From Bacillota bacterium (GTDB taxonomy: Bacteria > Bacillota_E > Sulfobacillia > Sulfobacillales > Sulfobacillaceae), in NCBI GenBank assembly GCA_021802375.1, contig JAKAAL010000385.1, positions 1 through 5,251 on the forward strand: a DNA stretch of 5,251 nt. The letters run 5' to 3'. The notes below the pieces were generated by a model that searched no databases, was not told where the DNA came from, and saw only the letters and a list, made by a program, of their open reading frames with translations. The position numbers and the translations under genes are program-made. Of this stretch, positions 1 through 5,251 are shown in pieces. How positions within the stretch are numbered: the first letter of the stretch is position 1; every line of letters starts with the position of its first letter.

Positions 1-515
1 ACCAGAAGCCCGCGTCAGTCCATTTTAGCAAAGTGGTCAACGGGGAGAAAACCGACCGCTATTTATGCGAAGACTGTGCCAAAGAGGAGGGGGCTTATCA
101 TTTCATGCTGGGTCCTCAGTTTACGGTTCAGCATGTGCTTGGTGGCTTGATTGGGCAGGAACCTCTGGGGTCTCAGCGCAGCGAGACCTCAACCAAGCGT
201 TGCCCCCATTGCGGTTACACCTACCAAAGATTTGCGGAAACTGGACGTCTGGGGTGTGACTATTGCTATCAAACATTTGCTCCTGAGTTGGAACCCCTGG
301 TGCGTCGATTGCATGGCAGTGTAGACCACCATGGCAAAGTTCCGGTACGGGGGGGGCGCCAATGGATTCAGCAACAAACCTTGGCTAATTTGCGTCTGCA
401 AATGAAGAAGGCAGTAGAGCGCGAGGCGTTTGAAGAGGCTGCAAAATTACGTGACGAAATAAGGCAAATAGAAGCTGGCCTGGAATCCGATAGGGGGAAT
501 GACCATGAAATATAG
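1..515 (+). CDS. mcsA: McsA, zinc-finger/UVR activator of the McsB arginine kinase (5' end missing)
   Basis: McsA is a small cytoplasmic zinc-binding protein that binds and activates McsB and helps control the CtsR repressor and ClpC. The frame is already open at position 3, and its first codons (QKPASVHFSKVVNGEK) align with McsA just after the first CxxC, so only the start and first cysteine pair are missing. GTG at 33 is therefore an internal valine, not the start. From GTG 33 as residue 1, CEDC lies at about 12-15, and a second zinc pair, CPHC and CDYC, at about 57-60 and 75-78. The family motif HHGKVP follows, and the end is a charged coiled UVR domain (about 115-150; EREAFEEAAKLRDEI). 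About 170 residues are visible, close to full family length. The stop lies inside mcsB, implying coupled translation. ctsR is expected upstream. The family assignment is secure. Confidence 0.95.
   Translation, partial: QKPASVHFSKVVNGEKTDRYLCEDCAKEEGAYHFMLGPQFTVQHVLGGLIGQEPLGSQRSETSTKRCPHCGYTYQRFAETGRLGCDYCYQTFAPELEPLVRRLHGSVDHHGKVPVRGGRQWIQQQTLANLRLQMKKAVEREAFEEAAKLRDEIRQIEAGLESDRGNDHEI
492..498 (+). promoter_or_regulatory. Ribosome binding site deciding the mcsB start
   Basis: AGGGGGA sits inside the 3' end of mcsA. Two in-frame ATG codons follow, at 499 and 505. The first touches the Shine-Dalgarno sequence, leaving no room for initiation. The second has about 6 nt of spacing and is the better start. 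The site lies within translated mcsA sequence, which suits translational coupling. Confidence 0.75.
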
Positions 516-1548
516 CCAATGGATGGATGGTACAGGACCGGACGCAGATATTGTCTTGTCGTGTCGTGTGCGTCTTGCCCGCAATTTATTGGCAACCCCA
601 TTTCCCCATCGTATGGATGACGGGCAGGCGCAAACTATGTTGGCCCGAGTGGAAGAAGCCGTGCATCATTTGGAAACCGGTTGGCACTTAACCTTTTCCC
701 GACTTTCTAATTTAACGCCTATCACGCGGCAGGTTTTAGTGGAAAAACACCTCGTAAGCCCTCTTTTAGCACAAGATCCGATTCGTTATGAAGCCGTGGC
801 TATCGATGATCGGGAGAGTATCAGTATTATGATTAACGAAGAAGACCATCTGCGAATTCAAGTGGTCTTGCCTGGCTTGCAACTGAATGAATGCTGGAAA
901 GTGGCTAACCAATTGGATGATGCAATGGAGCAACATCTTGATTATGCATTTGACCCTAAATCAGGGTATATTACTGCTTGTCCAACCAATATTGGTACAG
1001 CGATGCGGGCTTCGGTGATGATTCATTTGCCTGCGCTGGTGCTCACACATCAAGCCTCCCAGGTCTTTACCACGCTAGCCCAACTAGGAATGGTGGTGCG
1101 GGGTCTGTACGGAGAGGGATCGGAAGCGTTAGGCAATATCTTTCAAATCTCCAATCAGGTTTCACTAGGATTGAGTGAAGAGGAGTTCATTCATAATCTT
1201 ACCGTGGTGACCCAGCAAATAGTTGGACGAGAGCGTCATGCTCGGCAACACTTGTTGCAAAATGCTGGCACTGCATTAGCGGACCGGGTGGGAAGAGCTT
1301 GGGGACTACTGACCCATGCCCGTATTATGTCTTCCGAAGAGGCCTTGAGGCTACTTTCCGAAGTCAAATTGGGCGCCGACCTCGGTCTTATTGAGGCTCC
1401 GAACGCTGCTACCTATGCCCAGTTGATTGTGGCGACACGTCCAGGATTTCTGCAAGTGGAGGCAGGACGCGAATTAAACCCTATTGAGCGTGATCAGTTG
1501 CGGGCAGATAATCTTAGGCGGTTACTTGGAGAGCAAAACAGGGTATAA
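505..1548 (+). CDS. mcsB: McsB protein-arginine kinase
   Basis: McsB transfers phosphate from ATP to arginine side chains of misfolded proteins and CtsR; phosphoarginine acts as the degradation tag read by ClpC-ClpP. The product is 347 residues, slightly short of the usual 355-363. It has the phosphagen/guanidino kinase fold: nucleotide-binding SCRVRLARN at about 19-27, the catalytic acidic loop [10 protein letters not shown] at about 110-119, TACPTN with the conserved cysteine near 159, followed by [11 protein letters not shown], and the glycine-rich [13 protein letters not shown] at about 199-211. RDQLRA at about 329-334 matches the RDxxRA allosteric phosphoarginine site that separates McsB from creatine/arginine kinases. 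ATG 505 was chosen over ATG 499 for ribosome binding site spacing; it yields MKYSQWMDG, as expected. It overlaps mcsA by 11 nt and ends 19 nt before clpC. All motifs are intact, so it should be active. Confidence 0.96.
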
Positions 1549-1554
1549 CAGGAT

Positions 1555-1562
1555 AGGGGGGA
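1555..1562 (+). promoter_or_regulatory. Ribosome binding site for clpC
   Basis: AGGGGGGA lies in the 19-nt gap after the mcsB stop, 5 nt before GTG 1568. It supports the GTG start over the longer upstream in-frame extension to ATG 1484, which overlaps mcsB and encodes residues absent from ClpC proteins. There is no room for a terminator or separate promoter in the gap. Confidence 0.8.
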
Positions 1563-1567
1563 TTACC

Positions 1568-4024
1568 GTGTTTGGACAATTTACCGAGAAAGCACGTCGG
1601 GTGGTTATTCATGCTCAGGACGAAGCCCGACGTATGGGACATAACTTCGTTGGCACCGAACATTTATTGTTGGGACTCATCCGAGAGAGCAATTCATTGC
1701 CAGCCAAAGTGTTGCAATCGATAGGGCTAGATTTGGACACGGTGCGCGCTGAAGTGTTGAAGGCTACCGGACGCGGACCGGCTATTGGGCCTAATGATGA
1801 AGTGACCTTCACCCCGCGCGCTAAAAAAGTGGTCTTGGAGTTAGCGGGACAGGAAGCGCGTGCACTGAACCAAAATTATATTGGACCTGAGCACCTGCTC
1901 TTAGGATTGATTCGCGAAGGAGAAGGCGTGGCGGCGCAAGTGTTACTTTCGGCGGGGGCAGATCTGAATAAAGTGCGGCACCAACTGGTTCACAGTAACG
2001 GTGCCCAGGGGGCGGGCCAGGGACCATCTTCCGAAACTCCGGCCCCGGTCAACACACCGACGCTAGACTTGTACGGTCGGGATCTTACCCAGATGGCTCG
2101 AGACGGGAAGTTGGACCCGGTCATTGGTCGCGACAAGGAGGCTGAGCGGGTCATTCAAATTTTGAGTCGGCGCACCAAGAACAATCCCGTATTAATTGGG
2201 GAGCCGGGGGTGGGGAAAACCGCTGTGGTGGAGGGTTTGGCGGAACGGATTGTCGAAAACAAAGTGCCGGAAATTTTAAAGGACCGGCGGGTGGTGGCCT
2301 TGGATCTTGGAGCCATGTTGGCGGGGTCTAAATATCGTGGCGAATTTGAAGATCGGCTGAAAAGGGCTATGAACGAAATCCGGGAAGCGAAAAATGTCAT
2401 TTTGTTCATCGATGAGATGCACACCATTGTAGGCGCTGGAGCTGCCGAGGGCGCTATTGATGCCGCAAACATACTGAAACCAGCCTTAGCCCGAGGAGAA
2501 TTGCAAGCTATTGGTGCCACCACCTTGGATGAATACCGCAAATATATTGAACGGGATCCAGCTTTGGAACGACGCTTTCAACCTATCATGGTGGAAGAGC
2601 CGTCGGCGGACGAAGCGGTTCAGATTCTCGAGGGGTTGCGCGATCGTTATGAAGCCCACCACCGGGTGAACATAACTCAGGAGGCGATTGAAGCAGCGGT
2701 ACGGCTGTCGGACCGTTATGTGTCGGATCGGTTTTTGCCTGACAAAGCGATTGACCTAGTTGATGAAGCCGCGTCTCGTGTGCGGTTAAAAAGTTACGTT
2801 GCCCCTCCCGATCTCAAAGACTTGGCCGGGAAACTCGAAGAATTGCGAAAAGAAAAAGAGGCGGCGGTTCAGGCTCAAGAATTTGAAAAAGCTGCGCAAA
2901 TGCGAGACGAAGAACAAAAACTTCGCGAAGAGCTGGATCAGCAAACTCAGCAATGGCATGCTCGACAAGGGAAAGAAGCGATTAATGTAACACCGGAAGA
3001 TATCGCTCACATAGTGTCGTCGTGGACGGGCATTCCAGTGGAGAAACTAGCCAGTGAAGAGTCCGAGCGGCTTTTGCATTTGGAGACCGAATTGCATCAA
3101 CGGGTGGTCGGGCAAGATGAAGCGGTGCAGGCTGTAAGTCGAGCAATCCGTCGGGCCAGAGCGGGTTTGAAAAATCCCCGGCGCCCCATTGGTTCGTTTC
3201 TTTTCTTGGGGCCGACCGGTGTTGGTAAGTCGGAACTGGCCAAAGCTTTGGCTTCTTCATTGTTTGGAGACGAAGATGCCATGATTACAATTGACATGTC
3301 TGAATACATGGAACGGCATGCAGTGTCACGTTTGATGGGAGCTCCTCCGGGATATGTTGGATATGAGGAAGGCGGGCAATTGACTGAAGCGGTTCGCCGT
3401 CATCCCTATTCTGTGGTGCTTCTGGATGAGATTGAAAAAGCCCATCCGGAAGTTTTCAATATTTTGTTGCAGGTACTGGAGGAGGGTCGGCTTACCGAAT
3501 CGAAGGGGCGAACAGTGGATTTTCGCAATACCGTGATCATCATGACATCAAACGTCGGCGCTGAAGTCATTAAACGTCAGGCAACCATTGGCTTTCGACG
3601 CGATAGCGAAGACGGCCAATACCGAGAAATGAAAGATCGCCTGATGGATGAAGTGAAGCGTACTTTTCGTCCGGAATTTCTTAATCGTGTCGACGACATT
3701 ATCGTGTTCCACGAATTGAGCCAGGACCAACTGGCTCACATTGTGGGGATCATGCTGAAGGAAGTGGAAGAGCGGATTGCGCAAAATGGATATCACTTAG
3801 AAGTGACGGAGAGTGCAAAGCTTTTGATTGCCAAAGAGGGATTTGATCCCGTGTTCGGGGCGCGGCCGCTGCGTCGTGCCATCCAACGCATGGTCGAAGA
3901 CCAACTAGCCGAGGAGATTTTGGCGGGCCGCTTTCCTCAAGGGGTAAGGATCTTAGTCGGTGCGTCTGATGGTCGCATGGAATTTACCCGACTAGATGAT
4001 TCTGTGATAGAGCACGGGAGGTGA
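1568..4024 (+). CDS. clpC: ClpC, AAA+ unfoldase of the ClpCP protease
   Basis: ClpC is a hexameric ATPase that unfolds phosphoarginine-marked and adaptor-delivered proteins and threads them into ClpP. The 818 residues match the family length. Order: N-domain of two Clp repeats (about 5-65 and 80-140) with the GTEH and GPEH motifs whose glutamates (about E31 and E108) align with phosphoarginine contacts; AAA+ D1 with Walker A GEPGVGKT (211-218), pore loop KYRG (255-258) and Walker B ILFIDE (278-283); coiled UVR/middle domain (about 416-457, [13 protein letters not shown]); AAA+ D2 with Walker A GPTGVGKS (548-555), pore loop GYVG (595-598) and Walker B VVLLDE (616-621); IGF tripeptide (674-676) for ClpP docking; sensor-2 GARPLRR (764-770). 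Start GTG 1568 gives VFGQFTEKA, matching the canonical MFGRFTERA. The first N-repeat reads RESNSLPAK where homologues usually have REGEG-IAAK. The assignment is firm. Confidence 0.98.
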
Positions 4025-4025
4025 T
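4016..4025 (+). promoter_or_regulatory. Strong ribosome binding site for radA containing the clpC stop codon
   Basis: GGGAGGTGAT is an almost ideal match to the anti-Shine-Dalgarno sequence. The clpC TGA (4022-4024) is embedded in it, so terminating ribosomes sit on the radA initiation region. The site points to initiation within about 5-10 nt, where the radA frame offers only ATC (4028) or ATT (4031). This supports a non-ATG start for radA. Confidence 0.8.
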
Positions 4026-4030
4026 ACATC

Positions 4031-4682
4031 ATTCGAGAACAACGACGCTTTGTCTGTCAGGTATGCGCAACAACTAGCGTGCGATGGATTGGCCGTTGCC
4101 CTGGATGTGGGGGGTACAGCACAATGCAGGAAGAAATTGTCAAGGAGCAATCTGCTCCGACCGCAGGTCCTCCAGCCCGTGAACCGGTAGCCTTAAACCG
4201 AATCCAAACCGAAACAGTTTCTCGTTTTTCCTCCGGGTTGCCTGAAGTAGACCGCGTGCTCGGAGGCGGTATCGTGCCTGGAAGTTTCGCATTGCTGGGA
4301 GGAGATCCGGGTATCGGAAAATCGACTCTACTATTGCAAATTGCAGCGTTCACCAGTCAAAGTGGCCCAGTTCTATATGTGACGGCTGAGGAGTCTGCCT
4401 CTCAGACACGGCTGCGCGCAGAACGGCTACAAACTGCGGGGGACAACTTGTTTGTACTGGCGGAGGGAGATATCAATCGAATTGTACAAGCGATTACTGC
4501 CCGCCGTTGGCGGTTGGTGGTGGTAGATTCCTTGCAAACCGTCTTCAATCCGGGATTGGAGTCGGCTCCGGGTAGTGTGGGGCAGGTGAGGGATGTCGCT
4601 TCGCGGCTGATGCGGGTAGCCAAGGGAGAAGAGTCGCAAGAATGTCCGATATTTCTGGTAGGACATGTCACAAAAGAAGGGT
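4031..4682 (+). CDS. radA: RadA (Sms) DNA repair ATPase, 5' exon or N-terminal fragment
   Basis: RadA is a RecA-like ATPase that drives branch migration of recombination intermediates and is commonly encoded next to clpC. Seen here: a C4 zinc finger (C9, C12, C23, C26: FVCQVC...CPGC), a linker, Walker A GDPGIGKST (about 91-99), the AEES segment, Walker B LVVVDS (about 162-167), and VGHVTKEG at the end (about 210-217). The zinc finger lies upstream of every ATG/GTG/TTG in frame (first GTG at 4079), and the frame is closed by the clpC stop at 4022-4024. Initiation must therefore be at ATT 4031 or ATC 4028; ATT has the better spacing. After VTKEG the family continues S/A-I/L-AGPRVLEH and later KNRFG plus a Lon-like domain. 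Here it reads SLRPVA and stops at TAA 4700-4702. Reading the break as a phase-1 intron boundary after T4682 is inference. Otherwise it is a truncated pseudogene of about 223 residues. Confidence 0.88.
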
Positions 4683-4831
4683 CATTGCGGCCCGTAGCCT
4701 AAGGTAACTTGGGCTAAGGCACTGGGCTGTATGCATGAATGGTTGGAGATGCGGTGCGCGAGAGCCCACCGTGGCAACCGGATGTGCAGGAAACGAGGGC
4801 AACAACTTGGATCCTCAGAGACAACACGCCC
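4679..4831 (+). ncRNA. 5' half of a putative group I ribozyme (P1 to P3')
   Basis: Pairings found by eye. P1: exon GGGU (4679-4682) with GCCC (4690-4693), placing a U4682.G4690 wobble at the splice site. P2: GCCUAAG (4697-4703) with CUUGGGC (4708-4714), capped by a GUAA (GNRA) tetraloop. P3: GGGCUGU (4724-4730) with ACACGCCC (4824-4831), one bulged C. P4-like: GGUUG (4741-4745) with CAACC (4775-4779). P5-like: GCGGUG (4751-4756) with CACCGU (4767-4772), with GAGA as the joining strand. P6-like: GGAU (4780-4783) with AUCC (4811-4814). Then CAGAGACA (4816-4823) resembles the conserved R element / 5' strand of P7. This order, P1-P2-P3-P4-P5-P6-P7-P3', is that of group I introns. The weak points are the lack of a classical A-rich J5/4 and the unseen P7' partner. 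A UCCUG/CAGGG pairing (4835-4839 with 4852-4856) could be P8. Confidence 0.5.
4795..4799 (+). promoter_or_regulatory. Ribosome binding site for the intron reading frame
   Basis: GAGGG lies 7 nt before TTG 4807, the best-spaced initiation signal in this frame. The upstream in-frame ATG 4735 and GTG 4771 have no good Shine-Dalgarno sequence and would translate the structured RNA region. In the folded ribozyme this site falls in the P6 loop region, so translation and folding might compete. Confidence 0.45.
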
Positions 4832-5251
4832 AGCTCCTGACCGTGTGGGCACAGGGAAACAAAATATTTCGTCGATGGCAACACTTTCGTCGTGATGAGT
4901 ATGCGCCGTGGAGCACATTTGAGATGTGGTGGAACTTAGCACGTAGACTAACTGAGCGTGGTCTTGTGGCCCAAATGTTTCCGGGACCGGGACCGATTAT
5001 CGTGGTAGGCGGTCTGGGAAGAAAACAGGACCAATGGTTGGTTTTAGTGACACCGGAACAGTATTGGCCCGAAGTGTTTTCTCATCTAGTGGTAGTGCAC
5101 TTGCAGACGCCAGCAATGACGTGGTCGGACCATATTAGTTTGTCTTATGACTGTGCTGTGCGATTGGGAAATCGTCACTGGAATGTGCTGTTGCGGTTGG
5201 CTGACAAGATGGCAGAAGATAATGGCATATCTTGGTCATCTATTCAAGATC
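4807..5251 (+). CDS. Unrecognised tryptophan-rich protein encoded inside the element (3' end missing)
   Basis: The frame is open from 4708 to the window edge. With the TTG 4807 start, 148 residues are visible. I do not recognise the family. The first part (about 8-58) is predicted by eye to be helical, with LLTVWAQG, a basic FRRWQHFRRDE segment and FEMWWNLARRLTERGLVAQ, which ends like the recognition helix and wing of a winged-helix DNA-binding domain. PGPGP (59-63) is followed by strand-like IIVVGG and QWLVLVTP, then a VFSHLVVVHLQTP segment and a last helical part (HWNVLLRLADKMAEDNG). Ten of 148 residues are tryptophan. Its place inside a putative intron suggests a homing endonuclease or maturase-like role, but no LAGLIDADG, GIY-YIG or HNH motif is visible in this part. 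The real start could be ATG 4735 or GTG 4843. That it is translated is likely; its function is unknown. Confidence 0.55.
   Translation, partial: MDPQRQHAQLLTVWAQGNKIFRRWQHFRRDEYAPWSTFEMWWNLARRLTERGLVAQMFPGPGPIIVVGGLGRKQDQWLVLVTPEQYWPEVFSHLVVVHLQTPAMTWSDHISLSYDCAVRLGNRHWNVLLRLADKMAEDNGISWSSIQD

Follow-up and report, generated by a model that had tools for sequence, protein, structure and literature searches.

The window analysed here, a stretch of 5,251 nucleotides (nt) from a Bacillota genome of the family Sulfobacillaceae (GenBank contig JAKAAL010000385.1, positions 1 to 5,251, forward strand), ends inside an interrupted copy of the DNA-repair gene radA. The radA frame reads normally from its zinc finger to VGHVTKEG (GGG at 4679-4681), runs on for 18 nt (SLRPVA) and is closed by a TAA at 4700-4702, reproducing what a preliminary description had read from the letters alone. 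The character of the sequence changes at 4683, after radA exon 1. The preliminary description proposed a likely self-splicing intron; its identity as a group I intron is strongly supported by the comparisons given below, from which splicing itself is predicted. The main features at the locus are as follows.

4031-4682, + strand: radA exon 1, from the zinc finger to KEG plus the first base of a Ser codon (Pfam AAA_25 and zinc-ribbon matches; TIGR00416 positions 3-227)
4683-5251, + strand: the first 569 nt of an 807-nt predicted group I intron, which continues to base 4992 of contig C93 of the source genome (locus L006, minus strand; junctions from 31 complete class introns)
4807-5251, + strand: intron-encoded protein, 226 codons, from a conserved TTG to a TGA that lies past the window and 2 nt short of the intron end (comparison of the frame over 31 introns; dN/dS, the ratio of nonsynonymous to synonymous substitution rates; homologues)

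The second exon and the splice register

The preliminary description predicted that a second radA exon would lie downstream in a particular register, and it is present there. A match to the RadA C-terminal domain was found at C93:4381-4557 (minus strand), about 0.7 kb past the window end. It lies in a frame (...EALAGPRVVEH...KNRFG) that stays open until the natural stop. In the source genome the match to the RadA model TIGR00416 is divided in two (positions 3-227 and 226-434), and in relatives it breaks at about the same place. Neither chance nor one assembly error can account for a break that recurs in dozens of separate genomes.

The insert spans 807 nt, from window position 4683 to C93 base 4992. 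Exon 1 ends ...AAA GAA GGG U, with T4682 as its presumed last base and the first base of the Ser codon, and exon 2 starts CG CUA GCA GGA CCU; joined, they read K-E-G-S-L-A-G-P, and the predicted spliced junction reads through GGGTCGCT.GC. Uninterrupted relatives have KEGSIAGP and KEGAIAGP (L110, L111). Thirty-three introns were found in the class, of which two (L090, lacking its 5' end, and L107, lacking its 3' end) are cut by contig ends and were left out of the counts, as was the partly masked L116. Joining the exons in frame gave GS[L/I]AGP for all 31 complete class introns and for both complete introns of a distant family, f82. All 33 of these complete radA introns have a terminal G. Intron lengths range from 678 to 817 nt in the class and are 911 and 866 nt in f82.

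In the source genome (4.39 Mb, 196 contigs) the window corresponds to C93:5230-10480, minus strand, with mismatches at base 1023 and at four of the final five bases (5247-5251), where the window end seems to be a faulty contig tip. The frames preceding radA are those that we take to be mcsA-like, mcsB and clpC. Right before the radA zinc finger (4022-4031) lies an in-frame stop, with no ATG, GTG or TTG between. An identical layout was seen in the genus relatives L077 and L078 and in L095, while most relatives have an in-frame GTG or ATG in this region. Translation of radA may start at ATC or ATT in the window genome, L077, L078 and L095, the exact start codon being unsure.

A covarying group I core

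The pairings of the core were assigned as follows; window positions for P3 to P6 are alignment columns converted from the core alignment.

4679-4693, + strand: P1, exon GGGU(C) (4679-4683) with the internal guide GGCCC (4689-4693), U4682.G marking the splice site (no variation among 31 distinct rows)
4695-4716, + strand: P2 hairpin (two-sided changes in six of seven pairs, 93.5% of cells paired)
4700-4702, + strand: TAA closing translation from exon 1, inside P2 (stop positions across 33 radA introns)
4722-4833, + strand: P3 (4722-4730 / 4824-4833) around P4 (4733-4737 / 4783-4787), P5 and P6/P6a (4788-4798 / 4805-4815), from covariation
4820-4823, + strand: P7 5' strand GACA, within the R element CAGAGACAA (4816-4824), pairing with a UGUC past the window, near the intron 3' end (four standard pairs in 35 of 35 introns)
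4835-4838, + strand: P8 5' strand UCCU, which pairs across the reading frame with an AGGA past the window (each of 33 radA introns has 4 to 10 contiguous pairs)

Across the 31 distinct rows, 95.8% of 1487 cells were paired, as compared with 84.5% in shuffled alignments and at most 44.0% when partners were slid, a figure favoured by the structure having been derived from the alignment on which it is scored. Two-sided changes, the stronger sign, were present in 25 of 48 pairs, and none of 500 shuffles reached any of the five measures. P1 is invariant; P2, P3, P5 and P6/P6a vary and covary, and P4 is nearly invariant, with some two-sided changes. The four pairs of P7 were GACA/UGUC in 30 introns, GGCC/GGUC in three, GACC/GGUC in one and GGCC/GGCC in one, the first pair being GC throughout; a fifth pair fails in 18 of the 35, and slid controls paired 19-52 of 140 cells. 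The conserved G-C pair of P7 is presumably the guanosine site. P8, which exceeds four contiguous pairs in 22 of the 33 radA introns, encloses the reading frame and opens onto 175-244 codons that start inside the core and end near the 3' splice site. The intron ends 5-12 nt after P7, which leaves no room for P9.

Translation from exon 1 is closed within the intron in every case, at intron nt 18-20 in 27 of the 33 radA introns, at nt 33-35 in five and at nt 63-65 in one. In-frame stops after the first exon are noted for many group I introns in PMC3984707.

The two halves of radA might alternatively be made as separate chains that assemble, the insert then being a spacer with a third gene. Both halves and the middle frame are indeed open, and in 10 of 33 introns translation of the exon-2 frame could start inside the intron, at an ATG in the case of the window genome. 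In the remaining 23, however, no ATG, GTG or TTG occurs in that frame within the intron, so separate translation is not a general answer. Moreover, the intron lengths of the class are distributed over all three frames (14, 10 and 7 of 31), and the covarying RNA and the exact splice register would need a separate explanation. We consider a split radA very improbable.

The Rfam group I models, which the preliminary description suggested as a check, gave no match to the window, the source locus, the bare 5' core or 11 relatives. The probable cause is the reading frame, which occupies the P8 loop with about 600 nt. Other Rfam matches in these searches and in those of the 162-nt cheY copy described below (CRISPR-DR4, P26, a microRNA and others) were dismissed as chance. 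Without an Rfam match, the group I assignment rests on covariation, on splice-site rules and on one relative without an open reading frame (ORF) that matches RF00028. That relative came from searches with R1, a covariance model of the 5' core made from 32 sequences, which found second copies in two f82 genomes, G123 (E 9e-10, whole model) and G162 (E 2e-4, positions 43-157). Both correspond to putative ORF-less introns in a gene that we take to be cheY, in a flagellar gene cluster:

L118, 1509-1682 (G123): ORF-less group I intron of 174 nt in cheY, an R1 relative of the radA introns
L119, 1480-1641 (G162): ORF-less group I intron of 162 nt in cheY, an R1 relative of the radA introns

Their P1 pairs GAGGAU with GUCCUC, and the joined exons read FMRMMIKDIL. 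RF00028 (Rfam 15) matched the 174-nt copy over the full model (1-253 of 253; 37.3 bits, E 3e-8), below its gathering score of 50, and did not match the 162-nt copy. The radA copies, unmatched where tested, differ in carrying an ORF in P8 and in having no P9. The joined cheY is complete in G162; in G123 an in-frame TAA occurs further along, and this copy may be damaged or misread.

A further R1 match (E 2e-7) lies outside radA at L171 (G041:C44:112214-112353, minus strand), in a long phage-like frame and with R- and S-like elements. It is probably another group I intron; Rfam returned nothing there at E 1 or less.

One insertion site across an order

R1 was searched against 154 genomes of the class and matched 34, once per genome: 27 of 34 in the window family, five in f2, one in f3 and one in f19. 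With the match in G041, an f2 genome, set aside, 33 of the 154 have the radA intron, always at the same base, and among the matches listed TIGR00416 breaks near 226/227 in the carriers. In the window family the intron was present in all 27 genomes in which radA was found. The seven family members lacking an R1 match had no clear radA among the TIGR00416 matches listed; disA, searched for without a positive control, likewise gave no clear match in these seven or in G041 (G030 only at E 6e-5). These eight genomes were not counted as intronless. Six of them (G013, G019, G021, G030, G031 and G041) are 86-98% complete, which would mean either a gap at the locus or a real loss of both genes. Metagenome-assembled genomes named S. 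benefaciens and S. acidophilus also have the intron protein.

Outside the window family, f2 has the radA intron in four genomes of genus g12 and an uninterrupted radA in two of g14, among the matches listed. A sample of 398 genomes of the phylum gave six R1 matches, of which three belong to f82, outside the class, and lie in radA at the same base. A fourth f82 genome, G429, has radA with no intron and belongs to the same genus as the carriers G162 and G387; at this locus (L187) a frame break occurs soon after the empty intron site.

This distribution bears on whether radA has been knocked out by an insertion sequence or other dead insert, a reading suggested by the window alone, where the gene stops in a conserved motif. 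A common site across genera already excludes it: the same base, core and protein family recur in many genera, class genomes have one R1 match each, the inserted protein gave no credible match to a transposase family, and exon 2 is intact.

Divergence of exons, core and protein was correlated across 31 introns (r 0.80, 0.86 and 0.78; p 0.0001), as joint inheritance of intron and radA would produce, and may also be compatible with intron transfer between close relatives. On a RadA tree of 55 genes (32 with the intron), in which several rows sit on long branches, four changes of intron state are required, at least three of them by well-supported branches. These data fit best with an intron that was mobile early on and was then inherited vertically for a long time.

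The intron protein, a proposed mechanism and known systems

The intron protein is under purifying selection. Twelve chosen pairs were compared, of which two were saturated and five had dS above 1, neither set being relied upon; in the five pairs with dS below 1, dN/dS was 0.089-0.425. In the window group its frame opens with a UUG in the 3' strand of P6a and crosses P7, P3 and P8; an upstream ATG at 4735 is in the same frame. Searches of Pfam, PHROGs and PDB sequences with the intron proteins gave no match common to more than one member. Transposase families were not matched, apart from a chance-level rve match (E 0.04) in one of 28 proteins, and viral contigs contained no relative of the protein and no instance of the exact core pattern.

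Foldseek searches of the PDB with either protein model gave no E of 0.001 or less; the weak structural matches include PD-(D/E)XK-type nucleases, I-Ssp6803I and I-Bth0305I. Among viral models, one of a Heterosigma akashiwo virus 01 protein, itself uncharacterised, did match below this value (E 9.2e-4) and was given no weight. The active-site signature of PD-(D/E)XK enzymes, a conserved (D/E)xK, is absent from both protein groups. D64 of P0024, the aspartate at the PD position, is present in all 18 proteins of the distant type and was not seen in the window group, in which a single column of residues 52-250 is 80% or more acidic. R203 is present in 22 of 22 intron proteins and H204 in 21 of 22; the isoelectric point is basic in 25 of 31 intron proteins, but in 8 of 18 of the distant type. 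The protein probably descends from a PD-(D/E)XK homing endonuclease. Whether it now serves as a maturase for its own intron we judge an even question.

A working, if unusual, PD-(D/E)XK homing endonuclease would give a different history, in which the wide distribution reflects repeated homing into one site. The fold resemblance to homing and other nucleases, the D64 conservation, the presence and absence of the intron within one f82 genus and the four changes on the RadA tree are all consistent with it. Against this, neither protein group has a conserved (D/E)xK and the window group keeps only its single acidic column; intron divergence tracks that of the exons; and no intronless radA was found in the window family to serve as a homing target. 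We consider present-day homing unlikely.

The second exon, the splice register, the group I pairing, the common insertion site and selection on the protein each emerge from comparison of sequences, and on this footing it is nearly certain that the radA intron is spliced. We estimate a probability of about 0.85 for the reading in which it is a group I intron that excises itself from the message; for its protein we favour, less firmly, a homing enzyme that has lost its activity and been retained as a maturase. Guanosine bound at P7 would attack after GGG-U, the freed end of exon 1 would attack after the terminal G of the intron, and the joined message GGG UCG CUA GCA GGA (KEG-SLAG) would be translated into RadA. 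Ribosomes on exon 1 would halt at the TAA in P2 and hence be kept off the core. An ancestral PD-(D/E)XK endonuclease with a winged-helix tail would have brought the intron to the radA site; with its (D/E)xK residues lost, the protein would now aid folding of its own intron. A maturase role would explain both the retention of the protein and its inheritance with radA.

Because the protein starts in a strand of P6a and its frame passes through P7, P3 and P8, folding with splicing and translation appear to be alternatives: a given transcript would yield spliced RNA through folding, or else the intron protein through translation. We lean towards the two being mutually exclusive. It is a good deal more doubtful that this exclusion makes the domesticated former homing intron a DNA-repair switch. 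If it does, temperature, acidity or GTP level would act through the intron on the amount of RadA, and the intron protein, an inactivated nuclease now working as an RNA chaperone, would tune the switch.

A DNA-repair gene thus carries an intron in every window-family member in which radA was found, as well as in several relatives, and in carrier cells RadA production seems to require RNA splicing. The protein of this intron is unclassified and overlaps the ribozyme core, hardly any sequence follows P7, and the related introns of 162 and 174 nt have no ORF. As Rfam searches miss the radA copies, introns of this kind may be annotated as broken genes. The suggestion that radA could be a new group I insertion site agrees with our searches of the open-licence literature of PubMed Central (PMC), which gave no report of a group I intron in radA, cheY or Sulfobacillus. 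No paper on the smallest group I intron turned up there either, and the short cheY copies are not put forward as a size record. That the insertion is common to much of an order, with an unclassified protein and ORF-less cheY relatives, goes beyond the preliminary description.

Several known systems invite comparison. The homing enzymes I-Ssp6803I (PDB 2ost) and I-Bth0305I (PDB 3r3p), the latter of the EDxHD type, showed no sequence similarity to the intron protein, which differs from them in lacking a conserved (D/E)xK and in having an additional C-terminal winged-helix-like part. The LAGLIDADG maturase of the Thermotoga neapolitana 23S intron, as described in the review PMC3984707, is likewise an intron-encoded protein proposed to aid its own bacterial group I intron. 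Its host gene is another one, no LAGLIDADG protein is among the matches of the radA intron protein, and the maturase role is here only proposed. According to the same review, it is uncommon for a protein gene of a bacterial chromosome to contain a group I intron; the hosts that it names are recA, nrdE/nrdF and flagellin genes in Bacillus and nrdE in cyanobacteria, and it likens the introns of Bacillus recA, nrdE and nrdF to those of phages. In contrast to these, the radA intron has no relative found in viral contigs, occupies another gene and site, and follows its host gene across an order.
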